From positions 118,332 through 182,331 of the forward strand of contig JACZYG010000002.1 of NCBI GenBank assembly GCA_022571215.1: DNA of 64,000 nucleotides, written 5' to 3'. A program made the position numbers and the translations under genes. Positions 21,701-49,316 of the stretch are shown in pieces. The notes below the pieces were generated by a model. That model made no database searches and was not told the DNA's origin. It saw only the letters and a program-made list of their open reading frames with translations. Each line of letters begins with the position of its first letter. Positions within the stretch are counted from its first letter, which is position 1. This DNA is from Fidelibacterota bacterium. Lineage in GTDB: Bacteria > Fidelibacterota > SORT01.

Positions 21701-22823
21701 AATCCGAGGCAGAGGTTACCGACTTCATCTCTAAACCGGGTGAACCGCCTGCCGGCGCAATATTCAGCCAGAAAGCGGAAAAAGTTGAGTAAGGATTTTG
21801 TGAATAGTATATATGTCCTTTCAATTTATTGTATTCCCAGCCTGAACTGCCCTTGCCGTAAAAGACTATTTCTTCACCCGCATCGAATGTTCCGTTGGAA
21901 TTGGTATCCTTTCGCCATAAGGGAATCTCTTTGAGGTTGGGAGTAACCTCGGCGCCTATTGTACCATCCATAACTCTACCTTCGAAATAAGGCGAGTAAA
22001 GTTTGATACGGTCAATATCAATACCCGTAATGCTCACTCCGGTTGCTGCTAATTCCTCAGCAGTTATTTTATAAATGCCGTCTTCCAACAGGCTGAGCTT
22101 ATACCAATCACCGGGTCCGGAAGAGCTGTTTTTTTTGAATGCCTTAGGGAGATCATGCTTGATAAGCCATTTTTTTGATTGCTGGAAGTTAAGAATAGCA
22201 GTGCTATAAAGCTCTTCTTCGGCGACAGAAAATCTTTGAGGGCTGTTATCTCCGCTACTGCTTCTGAACGAAATATCAACCGAGATCTCATTAAAAAGAT
22301 CTAAAGCTCTCGTTTCACCGGAGACTTCATAAGGAATTATAATAGCGTTATATATTTTTTGCTGACGAAAATAACCGGCATCCTGCAATTGCACGCTTTT
22401 TATCTTGAGATCAGAATATGGAGAAAGATTATCTTCGTCGAGTTTGAAAACCGGGATGCCGTTTTCCCTCTTTATAGTGTTCGGAATTCGAACGAGCTCG
22501 CCTTTAATCGAACGTCCGCCCTTCTTGGTGATATTTATAATGATAGGCGCAGCATCCTCAGGAACACCGAACGTGAATATAGCCGCCGCTAACGCAGGCT
22601 CTCCCGGTTTTCCAAGTATAGTTGTAGCTTCGCTGAAAAAGAGCTCTATCCTTCCCGAGCCATCTCGTTCGTGCTTGAAATCCGGTCTGAGAGTGATGGA
22701 TATTCCTTTATCCGTGGACACGATATTCAGGCGTTTTAGTCCCGATTTAGGGGTTATAAACGACTCAATCCCTGTTTTCGGACTAATTTGCAACAGGATA
22801 AGGAGCAGGAGGGATGTTATCAT
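18777..22823 (-). CDS. porU: PorU-like type IX secretion sortase (peptidase C25)
   Basis: A 1348-residue secreted protein with an N-terminal signal segment (MITSLLLLILLQ). The long N-terminal beta region has the pro-domain style of PorU. The peptidase C25 (gingipain) domain spans about 600-990, with the catalytic histidine about residue 864 in VYIGHGGP and the catalytic cysteine about 899 in AGTCEFGRYDDP. The tail after ~1250 is a C-terminal secretion domain (VYNYPNPMSESTDFTFYLS, YTVAGRLIRKI, IANGVYIYRLRA). In Porphyromonas and Flavobacterium PorU removes such C-terminal domains from T9SS cargo and attaches the cargo to lipopolysaccharide at the cell surface. Two likely cargo proteins are encoded nearby (8817-10535, 15780-17651). 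An alternative is a cargo C25 protease rather than the sortase itself; the large size favours PorU. Confidence 0.82.
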   Translation of the reverse strand: MITSLLLLILLQISPKTGIESFITPKSGLKRLNIVSTDKGISITLRPDFKHERDGSGRIELFFSEATTILGKPGEPALAAAIFTFGVPEDAAPIIINITKKGGRSIKGELVRIPNTIKRENGIPVFKLDEDNLSPYSDLKIKSVQLQDAGYFRQQKIYNAIIIPYEVSGETRALDLFNEISVDISFRSSSGDNSPQRFSVAEEELYSTAILNFQQSKKWLIKHDLPKAFKKNSSSGPGDWYKLSLLEDGIYKITAEELAATGVSITGIDIDRIKLYSPYFEGRVMDGTIGAEVTPNLKEIPLWRKDTNSNGTFDAGEEIVFYGKGSSGWEYNKLKGHIYYSQNPYSTFSAFWLNIAPAGGSPGLEMKSVTSASDSPDSVITRYDAYLHHEEDLINFLRTGTGFFGVSLSGRSDISQLPLALNDLIKTEEISFRLRLRSGVEGRGFGGRLGLKHGSKSILVSNFVSNFGTTVIKKTMIADFLTSGVNNFTLEWEGADSPSKVYYDWLEIRYKRELKAESDKLHFFSPPNSGLLSFNASGFGSTEITIYNVTDLESTYRIIPSLNTTAEVVWQEKANGTVPSEYYLSTTSNYLTVSEIVIVEDFDTPKARSANTQAEYIILSHKEFRKSADRLAKYRTSEAAPKDRLNTVVYDIDDVVLEFSAGQTDPMAIRYFFKYAYENWNEPKPSFALLFGDGDYDYRNITGESTTFIMTYQLIDDTTTMNNHISFILSRAADDHFAYISGNDIIADISMGRIVSRTAEDAENYVEKLILYETQPIFGNWKNTLTIVADDLFRPSSNPEGVHITQSENIIKSFPQVSDIRKIYLTEYKVETDAAVFGVRKPDATQALLGQLNRGTTFLVYIGHGGPTVLAQERLLSSDRDLNIIDTGMKLPIWVAGTCEFGRYDDPNIQSMAEDLLVQRQNGAIGMIAASRLVYSGANARITTHFFKKLLPDHPFSSNTPRIGAALLAGKIAHNEPGNDEKYHYLGDPTMRVALPKGRATVNEPNPRTLQALGKASLTGKILDADGNKFSSGSVTVAINIFDSVVPVTRSENHNGVTGSISYKLPGSRIFSGPVSAVGDSFVSTFIVPRDINYGGNTGRGVVYWWDEKTGMDGAGSLNGIEYDGTANVSADNLGPDITIGFEELYFRSGDLIPPDATLEVIINDENGINLAEEVGHKITLTIDGELNSKFNVTQFFEYDINSYQKGTLRYPMPQLDTGEHSVTVKAWDSYNNFSEETAVFNISSSEDLVIERVYNYPNPMSESTDFTFYLSHPAEVVEISIYTVAGRLIRKIQDYSSVSVGFQSIRWDGTDEVRDRIANGVYIYRLRAKSSLTGNWEEVLEKLAIAR

Positions 22824-36671: not shown

Positions 36672-38795
36672 ATGATTCCAAACAGCCGTTTATTCAAAAC
36701 TATGTTACTGCTTGTTCTTATGAACGGCTGTTTAATTGAATCTCCTGAATCACCTACCTGGGAGGTGAATCTCGCCATCCCTTTAATAGATGAAAAATAT
36801 CCGCTTAGCGATCTTGTAGGACCTATAGCGGGCGACAGCTCGAACGGATTCATAGATCTCGATTCGTTGGATATTCTCCGATTGAATGTTCGGGACACTA
36901 TCGGAACAATTGAACTGGACGAAAGCAGGCTGACTGTGAGAGGAATCGGATTGATATCCGTTTCAGAGGTAATAGGACCGCTGACTTTGAATAATTTAGG
37001 TGATGATCAGGTATTTGAATCTCAAACGCTGTCAAGCATGTCGGAAGCGGTAGCCGCCGCTCCTAACGGCACGTCTGTACCGGTTCCCGGGTTTAGTCTG
37101 TCACCGATTGATAATGACGTTGCCATTACCGATGTGGAAGAAGCTACGATTGAACAGGGGATAATTAGGATTTCCATTTACAACGGTTTTATAGACGCTC
37201 CGAATTCAGGTATCCCCTTGACAAATATGCAGATTATGCTCACAGACGTAAATAACACCGTTATTGGAACCGCCCTGTACGATAGGATAGGTCCTGACTC
37301 GACCGAAACGAGGGACATTGATTTAGCCGGCAAGAGTTTCGTCGTTCCTCTCACAACGACCACCACAGGTGAATCACCCGGAACATCTAATTTTGAAATA
37401 AACAGCGCGTCAAAAGCGGGAAAGATCAGGGTAACCGTACAATTTATAGGACCTTTCATTGCCAGCAGGGTTAAAGGCAACATACCGTCAACTAATATTA
37501 AGATTTCGGAATCGATTCCTCTTGCGATATCGGGAAGCACAGAACTTATCAGCGGCAGATTTAGTTCTGTAACTGATGAGATGATACTTACTATAAATAA
37601 CGGATTGCAAGTTCCTCTCAGTGCGAGTCTGCTTCTACCGAATTTCATTGATTTCACCACTAATTTACCGGAGACGGTAATATGGGATAGTATTCCACCC
37701 GGCGGGTCGGAGACTCAACGCGTTGATTTAAGGGGGGACAGCCTCACAAATCCCGCGGGTGAGTTTCCCCTGACCAATATCGAATATATTTTTGAAGCCA
37801 CAACACTCTCACCGGGAAGTTCGAGCATCATTTCCGAAGATGATGATATCGAACTGGTGATCGTTCTTGACACGCTTCGTTTTTTGAGATGGAAGGCGAA
37901 TTTCGATGAAACGATTCCTACAACTGAAACCAATATTAAAGATATGCCCGAGGGATTCGCCGGAATCAGTCTTGAGGACGTGCGGCTCATATTGAATTTA
38001 CATAACACCATAAGCGTTCCGATGTTCCTTGACCTTAACATAATGGGTACCAATACGATTTTAAACAGCCGCGCTGAACTGGCTCTCGTGGATGCAGAGC
38101 TTAGGTCACCGCCTTTATTCAGTCTACAGCCTGAGACTACACAGATTGTCTTTAAAAAAGATTCGACCTGTGTCAACGCCGTATGTGAACCATCGGGAGA
38201 GACCGATATAGTAGATTTTTTTAATATACTTCCTGATAACATTTCAATTTCCGGTGAGGCGAGTCTGCTGGGAGTGGGAGTCGTATCAGTTGGGCAAAGT
38301 ATGAGCGGCGATTATCAACTAATAGTTCCTTTCTCGTTCTCGCTTGATTCGATCGCTAAATTTGTTCCGTCAACCTTCAGCACCATAGCGGCGCTTGAAG
38401 ATAAGCAGAAGGAACTGATAGAGAATAATATTCTCTATGCGATAGTCGAATCCGAACTCGTGAACAGCTTTCCCTTCGGTGGAACGGTGTCGCTGCTTAT
38501 TACCGACGATTTGACAAAATTCGATGTCCATCCTGATTCACTTGACGTGGACACGCTTCTGACGTTTGTGCTGCCGGATACTGATCCGGATATGGGCATA
38601 TTCACCGCGATAAAGCGTGATAGTGTCTTTCTCGACAGCTCGATAATCAGGATATTTACGAGAGGAGAGGAGCATTACCTAAAACCGTTGATAGAATTGA
38701 AATCTACCGACGGGAAGCCGCGAACCGTCACGGCGTCAAACTTTATTCGTATAAAATCAGTCATGACTTTTAGGATAAAAATAAATCCCCGATGA
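36672..38795 (+). CDS. Large lipoprotein of unknown function
   Basis: A 707-residue predicted lipoprotein: hydrophobic residues 9-17, lipobox LMNGC with cysteine at about 20, then IESPESPTWEVNLAIPLIDE. The mature part is almost entirely beta-type, with repeated blocks such as LTNMQIMLTDVNNTVIGTAL, FPLTNIEYIF and LIVPFSFSLD, suggesting tandem immunoglobulin-like or lipid-binding-like domains. I recognise no named family. Its stop overlaps the start of the next gene by four bases, so the two products are likely to act together at the outer membrane. A polysaccharide or surface-layer role is possible but unproven. Confidence 0.7.
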   Translation: MIPNSRLFKTMLLLVLMNGCLIESPESPTWEVNLAIPLIDEKYPLSDLVGPIAGDSSNGFIDLDSLDILRLNVRDTIGTIELDESRLTVRGIGLISVSEVIGPLTLNNLGDDQVFESQTLSSMSEAVAAAPNGTSVPVPGFSLSPIDNDVAITDVEEATIEQGIIRISIYNGFIDAPNSGIPLTNMQIMLTDVNNTVIGTALYDRIGPDSTETRDIDLAGKSFVVPLTTTTTGESPGTSNFEINSASKAGKIRVTVQFIGPFIASRVKGNIPSTNIKISESIPLAISGSTELISGRFSSVTDEMILTINNGLQVPLSASLLLPNFIDFTTNLPETVIWDSIPPGGSETQRVDLRGDSLTNPAGEFPLTNIEYIFEATTLSPGSSSIISEDDDIELVIVLDTLRFLRWKANFDETIPTTETNIKDMPEGFAGISLEDVRLILNLHNTISVPMFLDLNIMGTNTILNSRAELALVDAELRSPPLFSLQPETTQIVFKKDSTCVNAVCEPSGETDIVDFFNILPDNISISGEASLLGVGVVSVGQSMSGDYQLIVPFSFSLDSIAKFVPSTFSTIAALEDKQKELIENNILYAIVESELVNSFPFGGTVSLLITDDLTKFDVHPDSLDVDTLLTFVLPDTDPDMGIFTAIKRDSVFLDSSIIRIFTRGEEHYLKPLIELKSTDGKPRTVTASNFIRIKSVMTFRIKINPR

Positions 38796-40081
38796 ATAAC
38801 AGTGTAAAATTCGTAATTAAGTTATTGATGAATATAATAATTCTCCTCGGACTTGGAAATGCCGGAGAACTAAGCGGACAACTGCGTAAAGACCCGCGTA
38901 GTCTCGGCATGGGCGGAGCGTATACGACCATAGCGAGAGACTTTTTCTCGGTTGGAGTCAATCCCGCAAATCTTGGTGTTGTCAGAAATTACATCGCCAT
39001 GCAAATCATTCAATTTAATTTCGGAGTTTCAAACTCCAGCCTTAGCCTCTTCGAATATAACAAATTCAACGGCGCAGATTTGGAAAAGGACAACAAAAAA
39101 GAGGAACTCTTAGCGCTAATCCCGGACGAAGGATTGTCAATATATTTCGACACTTCGATTCAACCGATATTGGGAAATATCTCGTGGAATAACATGGCTG
39201 TTACAACAGACTTCTATTCGATAGGTGAAGTGACCATACCTAAAGCGCCATTCGAAATAATATTTAACGGAAACGAAGTCGGTGTGGACTATTCGCTCGA
39301 GGCAGGAGGGGAATCTCTTACCGCAGCGGAAATAGGATTCTCAAACGGCGGTCTTTTTGGAGGCTACCTCATGGGATACACAGCAAGAATCATAAAAGGC
39401 ATAGCATATTTCAGTGTTGACGATTCCGATGCCTTCCTCCGTACGGATTCATCCAAGATAGTCGGAGAAGGCGAATATATTCTGAAGTCATCAAAGGGAG
39501 GCTTGGGGTACTCTTTTGATATAGGGTTGTTAAAAGTAAGTAGAGGAGGAGCGCATTTTGGGATAGCCCTAATCAATCTTCTCGGGATGATAAACTGGAG
39601 CGACGACAATGAGCGGATAAAATATTTTTATACTATTGATAATTTAAACCTCAATCGAGTGGCAAAAAAGGGATATGCCGCGCTCGTAACAGGCGATAAT
39701 GAAAGAACTCCCTTAGCAGGAAATTTTTCGACTGACCTCCCGAGGTTGCTTAGAATAGGAGCTTCGACATCTTATAAGAAAACTCTGATCGCGCTTGATT
39801 ATATTCAGGGGTTCAGTGACCGGTTGTACTCAAGCAAAGTTGGAAAATTCTCGCTCGGGATGGAGTATTACGGAGAGTCGAGGACTCCCGTTCGCTTCGG
39901 TATCTCCGCCGGTGGTAAGGAAGGCAAAGAGATTGCTGTAGGACTCGGTTTCAGGCTTTTTAAATTTAAACTTGATATTGCCTCTTCTATGAGGGGAGCT
40001 TACAATCCTTCTAATGTTAATGGGTTCGAATTCTCTATCTCTATCTGGTCTGCGCTTGGGTATAGAAAAACGAAGAGCTGA
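38792..40081 (+). CDS. Outer-membrane barrel-like protein (PorV/FadL-like N-terminus)
   Basis: A 429-residue protein with a signal peptide (FVIKLLMNIIILLGLGNAGE). The segment after it, RKDPRSLGMGGAYTTIARDF followed by NPANLG, is typical of the FadL/PorV-type outer-membrane family (GMGGA...NPA(G/N)L). Many alternating strands follow (GLGYSFDIGLLKVSRGG, RLLRIGASTSYKKTLIALDY, RFGISAGGKEGKEIAVGLGF), and the chain ends in a barrel-like strand FEFSISIWSAL. The name or cargo is not recognised. It is translationally coupled to the lipoprotein gene before it. Confidence 0.72.
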   Translation: MNNSVKFVIKLLMNIIILLGLGNAGELSGQLRKDPRSLGMGGAYTTIARDFFSVGVNPANLGVVRNYIAMQIIQFNFGVSNSSLSLFEYNKFNGADLEKDNKKEELLALIPDEGLSIYFDTSIQPILGNISWNNMAVTTDFYSIGEVTIPKAPFEIIFNGNEVGVDYSLEAGGESLTAAEIGFSNGGLFGGYLMGYTARIIKGIAYFSVDDSDAFLRTDSSKIVGEGEYILKSSKGGLGYSFDIGLLKVSRGGAHFGIALINLLGMINWSDDNERIKYFYTIDNLNLNRVAKKGYAALVTGDNERTPLAGNFSTDLPRLLRIGASTSYKKTLIALDYIQGFSDRLYSSKVGKFSLGMEYYGESRTPVRFGISAGGKEGKEIAVGLGFRLFKFKLDIASSMRGAYNPSNVNGFEFSISIWSALGYRKTKS

Positions 40082-41471: not shown

Positions 41472-43412
41472 ATGTTTTTACGAAATATCACGTTTTTATT
41501 TGCTCTTTTAATAGTGTGGAACGGATCGGTCAGAGGCTCCGAGCCAAGAGGAAGCATTAGCATAGAATCCAGAAAAATCGCTTTGAACGGCGTGCCGTTC
41601 TCGGTCACTATAACTGTCTTGGATGCCGATGGCGGGATAGATGACAGCGCATCGGGAGAAATACAACTATACGGATTCAAAATGATCGATTCGGAAGGGA
41701 TGCTTCTGTCACCGAACCGTCTCGAGATCGAAAATGGAACTCTGACGATAGACAGGGTCATTTTTGAAAGTAACGGTCAAAACGAACTGTCCGTGGTTTT
41801 CAACTCGCTCAGTGGAAGCAAGAATGTCCAAACTCTACCCGCAATTTTGAGTCTTGCGCCTCCCCTTATCGCCATAGGACTCGCGGTTTTATTCAAGGAG
41901 GTATTACTCAGCCTTTTTGCCGGAATTTGGATAGGCGCGATTTTCTTAGCGGGCTACAATCCAATCAGCGGTTTCCTTGTAGCAATAGATAAATATATCG
42001 TTCCTTCCTTGGCAAATAAAGATCATGCGGCGGTAATACTGTTCAGCATGGGACTTGGCGGCATGGTGGGGCTTATTGCGCGCAATGGAGGGATGCACGG
42101 TGTTGTAGAAAAGATATCGAAGTATGCGAAATCAGCCCGTTCGGGACAGATAGCTACTCTTTCTATGGGATTGCTGATATTTTTCGATGATTATGCCAAT
42201 ACTCTTTTAGTTGGCAATACGATGCGGCCGTTTACCGATAAACTAAAAATTTCTCGTGAAAAATTAGCCTTCTTGGTTGACGCGACAGCAGCGCCGATTG
42301 CCTCCATAGCATTTGTGAGTACCTGGATAGGATTCCAAAACGGGTTGATTCAGAAAGGTTTTGATAGTATCGGTCTTGACAGAGACCCTTATATAACGTT
42401 CATAAGTTCAATACCATACAGCTTTTACGCTTTTATTATGCTCGGGCTGATAGTTATTACGGCTGTACGGGCTCGTGATTTCGGTCCCATGTTAACGGCT
42501 GAGAGAAGGGCGCAAGAAACAGGAAAGGTTCTCAGAGAAGGGGCAACCCCTCTTGCGGGAGCAGACCTCAGCGAATTGGATGTGCCTGATAGCATTGAAA
42601 AGAGGTGGTACAACGCGATGATCCCTATAGGATTCGTAATAGTTACCACTATAGTAGGATTATACTTCAACGGAAAAGCCGCTCTTGGAGCAACGGCGGA
42701 AAGCATGAAGTTCCATGAGATAATCGGCAGCGCCAATTCATTCACCGTTCTGATGTGGGCGGCATTCGGCGGTTCCATATTGGCAGCAATCTTGAGCCTC
42801 TCGCAAAAATTGACAACTCTTCAGGAAACTGTTGACGGTTATCTCAATGGCATCAAATCGATGGTGTATGCAATGGTTATTCTTATTCTTGCGTGGTCAT
42901 TAGGCTCTATCGCGGCGGATCTGTCGACGGCTGAATACGTATTGCACATAACAAGAGGACTCTTTTCTCCGAATTTACTTCCCGCTATGACATTTATAGT
43001 GGCAGCTCTGATAGGATTTTCCACCGGAACTTCATGGGGAACTATGGCAATTCTTACTCCGATAGTCATTCCTATGGCATATCACCTTCCTATAGAAGCG
43101 GGTATCGATGTGAGTCTGCAATCTTCGATCTTTTTAGGGACCATTGCGGCAGTATTGTCCGGCGCATGTTTTGGTGACCATTGCTCTCCCATTTCAGATA
43201 CTACGATACTTTCCTCAATGGCATCGGGGGCTGATCACATTGACCACGTAAAAACTCAATTACCGTATGCTTTATTAGCTGCCGGAGTAGCAATAGTATT
43301 CGGATATATCCCGGCGGGATACGGCATGAATCCATTTCTTTCCATCGTTTTGGGGATTGGAGCACTTTATCTGATTCACCGGAAGATAAGTAAACCGGTG
43401 ATTGTCAGTTAG
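41472..43412 (+). CDS. NhaC-family Na+/H+ antiporter with N-terminal exported domain
   Basis: A 646-residue protein. Residues 1-22 look like a signal sequence, then about 100 residues form a soluble beta domain (ISIESRKIALNGVPFSVTIT, LSVVFNSLSGSKN), before the first helix of the antiporter part (ILSLAPPLIAIGLAVLF, ~130). The rest follows the NhaC family: GLIARNGGMHGVVEKIS, FFDDYANTLLVGNTMRP, DATAAPIASIAFVSTWIG, and GFSTGTSWGTMAILTPI near 520, then CFGDHCSPISDTTIL. Such antiporters exchange Na+ (or a substrate such as malate/lactate) for protons. The extra N-terminal extracytoplasmic domain is unusual. It ends four bases before the convergent CNNM gene. Confidence 0.88.
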   Translation: MFLRNITFLFALLIVWNGSVRGSEPRGSISIESRKIALNGVPFSVTITVLDADGGIDDSASGEIQLYGFKMIDSEGMLLSPNRLEIENGTLTIDRVIFESNGQNELSVVFNSLSGSKNVQTLPAILSLAPPLIAIGLAVLFKEVLLSLFAGIWIGAIFLAGYNPISGFLVAIDKYIVPSLANKDHAAVILFSMGLGGMVGLIARNGGMHGVVEKISKYAKSARSGQIATLSMGLLIFFDDYANTLLVGNTMRPFTDKLKISREKLAFLVDATAAPIASIAFVSTWIGFQNGLIQKGFDSIGLDRDPYITFISSIPYSFYAFIMLGLIVITAVRARDFGPMLTAERRAQETGKVLREGATPLAGADLSELDVPDSIEKRWYNAMIPIGFVIVTTIVGLYFNGKAALGATAESMKFHEIIGSANSFTVLMWAAFGGSILAAILSLSQKLTTLQETVDGYLNGIKSMVYAMVILILAWSLGSIAADLSTAEYVLHITRGLFSPNLLPAMTFIVAALIGFSTGTSWGTMAILTPIVIPMAYHLPIEAGIDVSLQSSIFLGTIAAVLSGACFGDHCSPISDTTILSSMASGADHIDHVKTQLPYALLAAGVAIVFGYIPAGYGMNPFLSIVLGIGALYLIHRKISKPVIVS

Positions 43413-44764: not shown

Positions 44765-47233
44765 TTGGAGTATAAACTGTTTAAACATTTGAAAACTATA
44801 CTGTTTACAATTATCGCAGTTACGACTTTAACGATTAATATCGGCGCTCAGGATATATCGGGTCTCCAATTGCCTTTTGAATCCGTTGCGACAACGAATA
44901 GCGCATCTTCTATCGCATGGAATCCCGCCGGTCTCGGATTCGATAACGGAAGCGGGTTCAACATCGCTCAAACTCATTTCTCCCGCGATCTGTTTCGTGA
45001 TACCGGATTATATTTTGCGGGCAAAGGACTTGGTTATTCGGTTGAATTGCTGGGTAGTGATAAATCAAGGACTAAACAGACGATTGCAGCCGGTTTCGGT
45101 GGAGATGACACTTTTTCATGGGGATTCGGATATTCCTGGTTCAAATCAGCTGACCGAAGATATAGAGCGCTCAACGTACGAACTGTCGCTTTTACATCCC
45201 GACCCTGGAAATTTCTCTCGATGGCGGGGAAATGGAACTCGATAAGGGGCACCAATTACCCAGAAATAAGATTTGTTGGACCAATTCCTCCCAAACCTCA
45301 AGATAATTATCGGATTGGAATCGGTCTGAGACCATTTGGTAATAATATCACCATTACAACCGATCTAAATGTTGATAAGAAATCAGCCGGTAACGTTTCC
45401 ACTCTGATTTACGGGTTGGAAATCTGGTCGAATAAAGGACTGAGTGTCAATGCGATGTACGATGAACTCGGTAATTATGAATTCGGTTTAGAGATAGGAT
45501 TTCCAACCAAGAGTTTAAGGAACAGCAATTCATTTGATGATGCCGGAGAGTATCTTTCCTCAACTATAGTATTAGACTCACGTGAACATTTTAGGGAAAC
45601 TAATCTACACACGAAGGGAAGGTACCTGAAATTAAATTTGAAAGGCGATATTCCCGATAGCCCGCAGAGAGGCTATTTCTTCTCAAGAGGACCGCGCACA
45701 ACCGCCGAATGGGTTCGTTTGATAGAAAAGGCGAGAGGCGACGACTCTGTCAATGGAATTATCTTGAATATCGGAAGGTTCGGAGGGGGAATGGCAACGG
45801 TCTCCGAGATTCGAAATGCCTTGCTCCGCTTCAAAGAAGATGGAAAAAATGTTATCGTGTACGCCGAAATACTGACCGGAAAAGGTCTTCTCTTAGCCTC
45901 TGCGGCTGATATGATAATAATGAACCCATCAGGTTATCTATACTTTACCGGTCTGACAGCAAGCATCTCTTACTATAAGGGTCTGCTTGATAAAATTGGC
46001 GTGGAAGTAGAATATATTCGGGTAGGAAGGTATAAGAGCGCGGTCGAGCCGTTTTCATTTGATTCAATGTCATATTCTTTTAGAGAAGAGCTTGATGCCA
46101 TCCTTGATGATTATCAGAATTATTATATTGATGGTATCAGCGAAGGGAGAAACCGATCCAAAGACGATATAAGAATGTTACAGGATAACGGTCCTTTCAC
46201 GGCATCCGAGGCGCTGAAGAGTGAACTTATCGATAAGATCGCATACGAAGATGAGATTGATGAGATCATCAAAAAGAAATACGGCTTGAAAAGCATAGTG
46301 AAAATCAAGGCTCGCGACTACGAAAAACGGAAGAAGTTAAAAAGAGAGTGGAGCGACAAAAAGAAGATTGCGATAATTCATTTATCAGGAGCGATTATTC
46401 CGGGTGAAAGTAGAGGCGGGAGCCTATTAGGCGCAAAAACCGCTTCAAGGATCATTAAATACGCCCGTAAAGACCCTTCTATAAAAGCCATCATATTGCG
46501 GATTGACAGCGGTGGCGGAACAGCTCTCGGAGCTGATATTATTTGGAATGAGTTAAAGCACGCTAAGGGTAAGAAACCGATTATAGCAAGTTTCGGAGAC
46601 ATCGCCGCTTCAGGAGCATATTACCTTGCGATGCCGGCGGACACTATCCTTGCCGAAAAAACGACGTTGACCGGTTCTATCGGAATATTCATGGCGCTGC
46701 CGAAGGTAAAAGAGCTATATAAAAAACTCGGCATTCGGCAGGAAGTCATTAAGCGGGGTAAACATTCTGACATATTATCCGCCAATCGGATGTGGACAGA
46801 AGAGGAAAAAGAGCTTTTTCAGAGACAAATTGACGAGCTATATCAGGATTTCGTTAATAAGGTATCAGAAGGCAGGGGTATGACTTCGGTGGAAGTCGAC
46901 AGCGTAGGAATGGGGCGACTTTGGACTGGTGAAGACGCTTTGGATATCGGTCTCATAGATGTGATCGGAGGGATGAGGGAAGCGGAAGATCTGTCGTTAA
47001 AAATGACCGGATTAAATAGAGAAGATGTGGAATTCGTAACATTCAGCGCGTCAAGACGTTCTAAAATCGGCATAGGGACTCTATTAAAAGAGTCTGTCAG
47101 CAATAAATTTTATACCGATGATCCGTTAATCGAGGCAATTATAGAAGAGATCGGTTTTTATGGCGATCTGCTCACGTTGATGAAGGAAGCGGGATTAATG
47201 TTAATGCTGCCCTATGAATTGGAAATAGAATGA
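44765..47233 (+). CDS. sppA: SppA (peptidase S49) fused to an N-terminal outer-membrane-barrel-like domain
   Basis: Some 818-822 residues. A signal segment (HLKTILFTIIAVTTLTINIGAQ) leads into ~260 residues that resemble FadL/PorV-type barrels: ATTNSASSIAWNPAGLGFDNG, then alternating strands such as TFSWGFGYSWFKSADRRY and NVSTLIYGLEIWSNKG. From about 280 the protein is a two-domain (67K-type) SppA. The catalytic lysine is near residue 424 in GRYKSAVEPF and the catalytic serine near 616 in DIAASGAYYLA, with HLSGAIIPG and the ILRIDSGGGTALGAD glycine loop before it. SppA normally digests cleaved signal peptides in the membrane. The start is drawn at TTG 44765; CTG at 44777, six bases after GGAG, is an alternative. 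Its stop overlaps murQ. Confidence 0.88.
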   Translation: MEYKLFKHLKTILFTIIAVTTLTINIGAQDISGLQLPFESVATTNSASSIAWNPAGLGFDNGSGFNIAQTHFSRDLFRDTGLYFAGKGLGYSVELLGSDKSRTKQTIAAGFGGDDTFSWGFGYSWFKSADRRYRALNVRTVAFTSRPWKFLSMAGKWNSIRGTNYPEIRFVGPIPPKPQDNYRIGIGLRPFGNNITITTDLNVDKKSAGNVSTLIYGLEIWSNKGLSVNAMYDELGNYEFGLEIGFPTKSLRNSNSFDDAGEYLSSTIVLDSREHFRETNLHTKGRYLKLNLKGDIPDSPQRGYFFSRGPRTTAEWVRLIEKARGDDSVNGIILNIGRFGGGMATVSEIRNALLRFKEDGKNVIVYAEILTGKGLLLASAADMIIMNPSGYLYFTGLTASISYYKGLLDKIGVEVEYIRVGRYKSAVEPFSFDSMSYSFREELDAILDDYQNYYIDGISEGRNRSKDDIRMLQDNGPFTASEALKSELIDKIAYEDEIDEIIKKKYGLKSIVKIKARDYEKRKKLKREWSDKKKIAIIHLSGAIIPGESRGGSLLGAKTASRIIKYARKDPSIKAIILRIDSGGGTALGADIIWNELKHAKGKKPIIASFGDIAASGAYYLAMPADTILAEKTTLTGSIGIFMALPKVKELYKKLGIRQEVIKRGKHSDILSANRMWTEEEKELFQRQIDELYQDFVNKVSEGRGMTSVEVDSVGMGRLWTGEDALDIGLIDVIGGMREAEDLSLKMTGLNREDVEFVTFSASRRSKIGIGTLLKESVSNKFYTDDPLIEAIIEEIGFYGDLLTLMKEAGLMLMLPYELEIE

Positions 47234-48159
47234 CGGTGAGACAGAAAACCGAAGTCGACAGTTCACTGATGGCATCTCTTACAACCGAGCTGCGGAACCC
47301 GAAAAGTATGGAAATTGACGCTCTTTCCGTTAGGGAAATACTCGAATTGATAAACAGCGAAGACAAATTGATTACCGATGTTGTCGCCGAAGAGATCGGA
47401 AATATTGAAATCGCAGTAAACTATGTCGTCGAGTCGCTCCGGGCAGGCGGAAGATTGATATATGCGGGAGCGGGAACAAGCGGAAGGCTCGGAATACTTG
47501 ATGCGACAGAAATCCCGCCCACCTTCTCGGCAGATCCGAATATGGTGCAGGGTATTATCGCAGGGGGAATGGATGCTTTGGTTCGTTCGATAGAAGGGGC
47601 GGAAGATTATCCCGAAGACGGCAAAAGGGACATTATGGAGAAAAATGTCTCGGAAAAGGATGTGGTCTTCGGAATTGCCACAAGCGGCCGGACTCCCTAT
47701 GTGCTCGGCGTTCTCGAAAAGGCGAAAGAATTGGGGGCAAAAACGGTATTTCTCTCCTGCAACAAGGTAAACGAAGCCGATATAGACGCGGATCTGATAA
47801 TATCTCTGATAGTAGGCCCTGAGGTCGTAACCGGTTCTACCCGAATGAAAGCCGGCACGGCTACAAAACTCGTTTTAAACATGGTAACGACTACCGCAAT
47901 GATAAAACTCGGTAAGGTATATGGAAACCTTATGGTGGACCTGAAGGCTGTGAACAATAAATTGGTGGACAGAGCCTGTAGAATACTCGGTATACTCACC
48001 GGCATCGGTCACGATGCGGCGGAGAAGGTACTGACCGATGCGGAAATGAGTCTCAAGGTGGCTATCGTTATGCAGCTTGGAGAGATGAATCGCGCGCAAG
48101 CGAATCAAAAACTTGATGAGGTAAATGGTATAGTTAGAAATGCGGTTAATCTATCATGA
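47230..48159 (+). CDS. murQ: N-acetylmuramic acid 6-phosphate etherase
   Basis: A 309-residue SIS-domain enzyme that removes the lactyl ether from MurNAc-6-phosphate to give GlcNAc-6-phosphate. Signatures are YAGAGTSGRLGILDATEIPP, GDM-type ADPNMVQGIIAGG, the SIS loop GIATSGRTPYVLG, and GSTRMKAGTATKLVLNM, then LTDAEMSLK. It overlaps sppA and anmK by four bases each, forming a peptidoglycan-recycling pair with anmK. The ATGA junctions imply translational coupling. Confidence 0.97.
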   Translation: MTVRQKTEVDSSLMASLTTELRNPKSMEIDALSVREILELINSEDKLITDVVAEEIGNIEIAVNYVVESLRAGGRLIYAGAGTSGRLGILDATEIPPTFSADPNMVQGIIAGGMDALVRSIEGAEDYPEDGKRDIMEKNVSEKDVVFGIATSGRTPYVLGVLEKAKELGAKTVFLSCNKVNEADIDADLIISLIVGPEVVTGSTRMKAGTATKLVLNMVTTTAMIKLGKVYGNLMVDLKAVNNKLVDRACRILGILTGIGHDAAEKVLTDAEMSLKVAIVMQLGEMNRAQANQKLDEVNGIVRNAVNLS

Positions 48160-49316
48160 TCGAATCGCTTGACTTGCTTTCCGCTAAAGAGGAACGAATC
48201 GTAGCGGGATTGATAAGCGGGACGTCAATGGACGGCGTTGATGTGGTTATCTGCAAACTATCGGGGAGCGGTGTCGAAACCGTTTGGGATCTACTATATT
48301 TTAATTCATACCCCTACAGCGATGTTCTGCGAAAAAAAATAATTGATACGCTTAAAGGCACAGCCGAAGATGTTTGCAGATTGAACTTTGATCTTGGCAA
48401 GGAATTCTCTTTTCAATTAAAAATAGCATTCGAGGAGTCGGGAATTGATGTTGAACAATTGGATCTCATCGGTTCTCACGGTCAGACAATTTATCATGTC
48501 AACGGACATTCGAGCTTACAGGTGGCTGAAGCATCGGTGATGGCAGAAGATTTCGGAGTGCCCGTTATTTCAGATTTTCGTGTCAGAGATATTGCGGCGG
48601 GAGGGAACGGAGCTCCTCTCGTGCCTTATTTGGACTATCTGCTTTTTGGGAAGGACGGGGGAAAATTACTGCTTAACTTAGGCGGTATAGCCAATTTCAC
48701 CATAATTCCTTCGGCAGGCGGTAATCCGGACACCGTAAGAGCATGGGATACGGGTCCCGCCAATATGTTGATAGATTTAGCCACGATATACATCTCTGAG
48801 GGTAAAGAGAAATTCGATGAATCAGGAAAATACGCAGCCGGAGGAAAAATAAATGGTGATTGGATGAGCCATTTAATGGCGCATCCTTTCGTCACAAAAT
48901 CTCCTCCGAAGTCAACCGGCAGGGAAGATTTCGGCGAGGAGTATTTTCAGTCTCTTTTGACCGCTTTTAATGTAAATACCGAACAAGATAAGCTGGACCT
49001 TATAGCAACCGTTACCCGATTTACGGCGGAATCGGTCTATTCAAATTTTATCGCTTTTTCCAACACGGGTGACGATATATCCGAGCTGATAGTGAGCGGC
49101 GGAGGGGTTAACAATGCGGTAATTATAAGCCATTTAGAAGAGTTATTTTCAGCTGTAAGTATAAAAAAAATAGATGATTACGGAATATCGTCAGATGCGA
49201 AAGAAGCGTTTGCGTTTGCTATTCTCGCAAACGAATTTATATCGGGAAACCCAACAAATATCCGATCCGTAACGGGCGCTGGTAAGCGGGTAATGTTGGG
49301 CAAACTAACAGTGTGA
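48156..49316 (+). CDS. anmK: Anhydro-N-acetylmuramic acid kinase
   Basis: A 386-residue sugar kinase of the Hsp70/actin fold that opens and phosphorylates anhydroMurNAc from wall turnover to MurNAc-6-phosphate, the MurQ substrate. Motifs: GLISGTSMDGVDVVICKLSG (ATP phosphate loop), DLIGSHGQTIYH, GGNGAPLVPYLDYLLF, LNLGGIANFTI, and AWDTGPANMLID, followed by the C-terminal LIVSGGGVNNAVI. The length is standard. It is directly coupled to murQ. Confidence 0.97.
   Translation: MIESLDLLSAKEERIVAGLISGTSMDGVDVVICKLSGSGVETVWDLLYFNSYPYSDVLRKKIIDTLKGTAEDVCRLNFDLGKEFSFQLKIAFEESGIDVEQLDLIGSHGQTIYHVNGHSSLQVAEASVMAEDFGVPVISDFRVRDIAAGGNGAPLVPYLDYLLFGKDGGKLLLNLGGIANFTIIPSAGGNPDTVRAWDTGPANMLIDLATIYISEGKEKFDESGKYAAGGKINGDWMSHLMAHPFVTKSPPKSTGREDFGEEYFQSLLTAFNVNTEQDKLDLIATVTRFTAESVYSNFIAFSNTGDDISELIVSGGGVNNAVIISHLEELFSAVSIKKIDDYGISSDAKEAFAFAILANEFISGNPTNIRSVTGAGKRVMLGKLTV

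Follow-up and report, generated by a model that had tools for sequence, protein, structure and literature searches.

One gene of the window, i.e., of the 64,000-nucleotide stretch of DNA analysed here, encodes an SppA peptidase in which the usual transmembrane (TM) anchor has given way to a domain of the PorV/FadL superfamily of outer-membrane (OM) barrels. The same domain order recurs in most families of the window's phylum and, as judged from the SppA part of these proteins, the fusion arose once. We interpret this architecture as an ancient anchor swap, which would have led to an OM-tethered SppA clearing hydrophobic peptides at the periplasm-facing surface of the outer membrane; the probability of this reading is estimated at roughly two in three. 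SppA is generally described as an enzyme of the inner membrane (in Gram-negatives) or the plasma membrane, and we know of no SppA-type enzyme at the outer membrane. In the open-access literature, which covers only part of all publications, no paper on a barrel–SppA fusion was found.

The Fusion Gene

The ORF listing with translation gives a single uninterrupted reading frame at 44765–47233 (+), comprising 822 amino acids when counted from the TTG at 44765. The true start is, however, probably the CTG at 44777, which yields a gene at 44777–47233 (+) and a protein of 818 amino acids plus stop, because the TTG overlaps a GGAG (44767–44770, +) that is sited 6 nt before the CTG, and because both relatives of the same family have a TTG at the CTG codon, immediately behind an in-frame stop. 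The GGAG is a probable ribosome-binding site and occupies the same position in the relatives L033 and L034. The stretch 44765–44791, thus, contains a probable non-ATG start, with CTG in the window, TTG in both family relatives, and GGAG shortly before each. Residue numbers of the 818-residue form (K420, S612) are those of the 822-residue form (K424, S616) minus four.

All parts of the protein are encoded on the same (+) strand. A signal peptide (44777–44848), with cleavage expected between ...NIGA and QD, is followed by the barrel domain (44849–45574), by a linker delimited in the alignment of relatives (45575–45616), by the first (45617–46336) and second (46337–47026) S49 domains of SppA, and by a C-terminal tail ending in MLPYELEIE (47027–47230). 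According to the alignment, relatives possess a tail of similar length, often with PY or PF plus a beta-like end.

A Complete SppA without Its Transmembrane Helix

Within the C-terminal ~500 amino acids, Pfam Peptidase_S49 (PF01343) matches in two stretches, the first S49 domain being additionally recognised by TIGR00705 and the second by TIGR00706. The NCBIfam model TIGR00705 (SppA_67K) matches amino acids 314–745 with 350 bits, exceeding its cut-off of 311 bits, and SppA of E. coli (3bez) aligns with residues 315–748 at E=6e-65. The complete two-domain SppA that the earlier note had read from this sequence is, thus, confirmed, and so is the catalytic dyad proposed there: K424 (K420 of the 818-residue form; 46034–46036, +) and S616 (S612; 46610–46612, +) sit in the conserved YKSAVEP and AASG motifs in the alignment to 3bez, and the Lys–Ser pair is kept in 74/74 aligned two-domain SppAs, outgroups included.

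The N-terminal inner-membrane TM helix that belongs to the SppA 67K type is absent from the window's protein, which has a signal peptide and then the ~240-amino-acid barrel-type domain; the protein is, therefore, a variant of SppA and not a standard member. The hydrophobic segment of the window's protein has a mean KD of 1.65, compared with about 2.5–3.0 in TM-anchored SppA relatives and outgroups. The other fusions likewise contain a signal peptide only, with KD values that reach about 2.4 and mostly lie at 1.4–2.1, and the segment ends in AQ or GQ in nearly all relatives. These values agree with the earlier proposal that the barrel takes the place of the usual anchor. As automatic annotation with TIGR00705 would label such fusions plain SppA, the barrel would be overlooked.

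In E. coli, SppA forms a tetramer with a Ser–Lys dyad, a one-helix inner-membrane anchor and a periplasmic catalytic domain (PMC9360617), and a short TM helix is likewise present in SppA of F. columnare (PMC13236525). An enzyme with a TM helix accompanies the fusion in the window's genome, where three S49 stretches are found: two in the fusion and one in a separate 298-amino-acid protein with a strong TM helix (KD 3.19). Ten second copies were inspected in further genomes of the phylum; eight are readable by motif, and seven of these eight have a TM helix. One copy is truncated by the end of its contig.

A PorV/FadL-Type Domain at the N-Terminus

The ~240-amino-acid N-terminal domain carries, in its N-terminal part, the conserved motif SVATTNSASSIAWNPAGLGFD (44882–44944, +), in which Ser36 and Asn49 are invariant in 27 relatives. 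In the alignment of these relatives, the whole domain has five invariant columns, and residues beyond the motif are poorly conserved. The assignment to the PorV/FadL superfamily comes from hhalign comparison with PorV proteins of the same genome and from the beta moment. A profile built from the 27 N-terminal domains matched seven own-genome PorV proteins with a probability of 98.1% (E=1e-13), which amounted to 97.5% (E=5e-12) upon removal of the signal peptides and still to 88.8% upon removal of the NPAGL motif region, while five column-shuffled profiles, a reversed profile and the SppA domains as controls stayed at or below 2.4%. The own-genome PorV profile, in turn, matches the F. johnsoniae PorV structure 6h3i (E=9e-34); the literature describes PorV as a FadL-family outer-membrane barrel with 14 strands (PMC9143113). 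In terms of hydrophobic alternation, residues 60–243 reach a beta-moment z-score of 2.9, the PorV proteins 2.8, and the SppA part −1.6. The fusion of SppA to a PorV/FadL-type barrel domain, as had been suggested from the sequence alone, was borne out by these comparisons.

The relationship holds at the superfamily level. Against the NCBIfam family PorV_fam (NF033709), the domain alone gave a weak match over amino acids 40–85 (E=1e-4), and its score of 21.9 bits is below the curated cut-off of 90 bits; hence, it is a relative of PorV and FadL, but not a PorV_fam member as curated. Pfam returned nothing relevant for the N-terminal domain of the window's protein or for all 27 domains, and a PDB search with the domain profile returned chance matches only. 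The predicted barrel is deduced from homology rather than from a structure model, single-sequence AlphaFold (AF2) of the mature domain alone, without an alignment, having given a pLDDT of 29.8. Given its length of ~240 amino acids versus ~300–370 in the PorV proteins of the genome, the domain may have fewer strands.

Another protein of the phylum combines a FadL-type N-terminus with further sequence. A 918-amino-acid frame (L235; G115:C16 about 22181–22663 and downstream) starts with a PorV/FadL-like domain, after which comes a large non-S49 part that, by eye, resembles a transglutaminase; Pfam gives only a weak FadL match. It may represent a second fusion of a FadL-type barrel to a C-terminal enzyme-like domain in the window's phylum.

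Distribution and Single Origin

With the N-terminal 288 amino acids as query, matches were obtained in 40 of 245 genomes of the window's phylum, most of them within frames of 800–860 amino acids, and the whole-protein query gave more matches. When loci were fetched and frames read, the same domain order, for which the earlier note had recommended a search, was found in 62 proteins from as many genomes, about 750–870 amino acids long and distributed over 20 of the 31 families of the phylum.

In a tree built by a quick method on the SppA part alone, with some long outgroup branches, all 62 barrel proteins lie on one side of one branch (SH-aLRT 97), corresponding to one change, and on this basis the fusion has a single origin. 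Outside the barrel clade are TM-anchored SppAs of Bacteroidota, Proteobacteria, Fusobacterium and two viral-collection contigs, as well as TM-anchored SppAs (601 and 614 amino acids) from four genomes of the same phylum. Among 200 genomes of one other phylum, to which an alphaproteobacterial contig belongs, no two-domain SppA among the matches listed reaches into the barrel; these matches start at profile position 240 at the earliest and lie in frames of 538–707 amino acids. A scan of genome contigs with the single protein retrieved one distant SppA only, and a scan of viral contigs retrieved S49 relatives only, of which the long ones are TM-anchored, and no fusion.

As a separate observation, the 614-amino-acid TM-anchored SppAs of G115, G118 and G074 (L179, L180, L218) are nearly alike across the families f16 and f18 and group with proteobacterial forms on the tree, pointing to either lateral transfer or contamination.

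Genomic Neighbourhood

The fusion gene is followed by a murQ-like gene (47230–48159, +; SIS/GKRP domains), which overlaps the fusion stop by 4 nt, and by anmK (48156–49316, +; PF03702, E=6e-90). In the earlier note, this overlap was taken to tie the fusion to envelope turnover. The order fusion–murQ–anmK is, however, kept only in two relatives of the window's own family (f1) and in 0 of the 18 other loci checked, and the link is rejected beyond that family. Upstream, the window contains an NhaC-type Na+/H+ antiporter (41472–43412) whose start resembles a signal peptide and whose first TM region is preceded by about 130 extra residues; frames of similar length occur in the relatives L163 and L164. 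A few genes upstream of the fusion, there is another FadL-like protein (DUF5723; 38792–40081), directly preceded by a 707-amino-acid protein without a Pfam match (36672–38795).

A Proposed Role at the Outer Membrane and Its Alternatives

According to the anchor-swap reading, the protein would be exported by Sec and its signal peptide removed, upon which the N-terminal PorV/FadL-type barrel would insert in the outer membrane and the two-domain SppA would hang into the periplasm in the manner of the OmpA C-terminal domain. Like other SppAs, the SppA part would be expected to assemble into a ring, with its Ser–Lys sites now held against the inner OM leaflet. Candidate substrates are short hydrophobic peptides, such as released signal peptides, fragments of failed OM or secreted proteins, or antimicrobial peptides, while the separate ~300-amino-acid TM-anchored SppA would do the same job at the inner membrane. 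FadL-type barrels have an even strand number with both ends in the periplasm; if this is kept, SppA would, therefore, be located beneath the outer membrane, in the periplasm, with the compartment unchanged and the membrane exchanged. The earlier expectation that the peptidase would face a different compartment has to be given up, since the catalytic domain of E. coli SppA is already periplasmic (PMC9360617) and only the membrane would change. Substrates other than signal peptides are plausible because deletion of SppA in B. subtilis alters antimicrobial-peptide resistance without a secretion defect (PMC7568657).

We think that the barrel is mainly an anchor, because conservation is loose beyond its N-terminal motif. 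A more far-reaching version, by which SppA moved to the outer membrane phylum-wide and digests hydrophobic peptides at or through it, with the barrel also serving as substrate entry, would make the fusion a quality-control or peptide-defence post; we regard this version as tentative and rather doubtful. It is unlikely that the barrel is a conduit as well, taking up hydrophobic peptides or peptidolipids from the outside in a FadL-like manner and passing them to SppA, which would digest them for nutrition or for defence against antimicrobial peptides. The superfamily does include channels for hydrophobic ligands, the domain keeps the NPAGL N-terminal motif, and B. subtilis SppA is tied to antimicrobial-peptide resistance (PMC7568657); however, the poor conservation after the motif fits an anchor better than a specific channel, and both FadL and PorV are longer than this domain.

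The window's genome (G000) encodes SprA, about 36 type IX sorting tails and several PorV proteins, which would suit a barrel acting as a type IX docking part like PorV or PorP, with SppA processing cargo or cleaning the translocon. Within the phylum, however, 94/94 good genomes contain SprA, whether or not they also carry the fusion, which is patchily distributed; therefore, the distribution of the fusion does not tie it to the type IX system, and coupling by co-occurrence is not supported. Furthermore, we know of no processing of type IX cargo by SppA, and this explanation appears improbable. An equally low probability is given to a reading in which the N-terminal domain is either an incomplete barrel or a beta domain of the periplasm with no more than PorV-like ancestry, and in which a signal peptide left uncleaved holds the protein at the inner membrane. 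The domain is short for its family, and the hydrophobic segment could in principle remain uncleaved, but the signal peptides end in AQ or GQ, as cleaved ones do, and fall below the TM anchors of SppAs in hydrophobicity, and the hydrophobic alternation equals that of true PorV proteins. As to an artefact, in which two genes were joined by a frameshift or misassembly, the earlier note had named such an error as a possible refutation; no sign of one was found, 62 independent intact fusions refute it, and the conservation of the same junction in 62 genomes from 20 families leaves this explanation a negligible chance.

If the anchor-swap reading is correct, two proposed roles of SppA, signal-peptide clearance and resistance to membrane-active peptides, would be separated by place, and a membrane peptidase could change membranes through the exchange of its anchor.

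Relation to Known Systems

With the SppA 67K type (protease IV; TIGR00705; MEROPS S49), the window's protein shares the tandem S49 pair with Lys in the first and Ser in the second domain, at an identity of roughly 31–36% to the Bacteroidota and E. coli forms; where this type has a TM anchor, the window's protein has the ~240-amino-acid barrel domain instead. The single-domain SppA of the same genome (~300 amino acids) is an S49 enzyme with Ser and Lys like the fusion but, unlike it, consists of one domain with one strong TM helix and no barrel. The signal peptide, the SVAxxDNAxAxxxNPAGLG motif and profile-level homology over most of the domain are common to the N-terminal part and the PorV/PorQ and FadL family (NF033709; 6h3i), whereas the fusion's domain is about one third shorter than those barrels and has a C-terminal enzyme attached. 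Both parts are already known, and what appears to be new is an SppA variant with an exchanged anchor. In overall layout, the fusion resembles the OmpA type, in which an N-terminal OM barrel precedes a C-terminal periplasmic domain. The order of parts and the expected orientation are the same, but the barrel belongs to another family, and the C-terminal part is a peptidase in the fusion and a peptidoglycan binder in OmpA.
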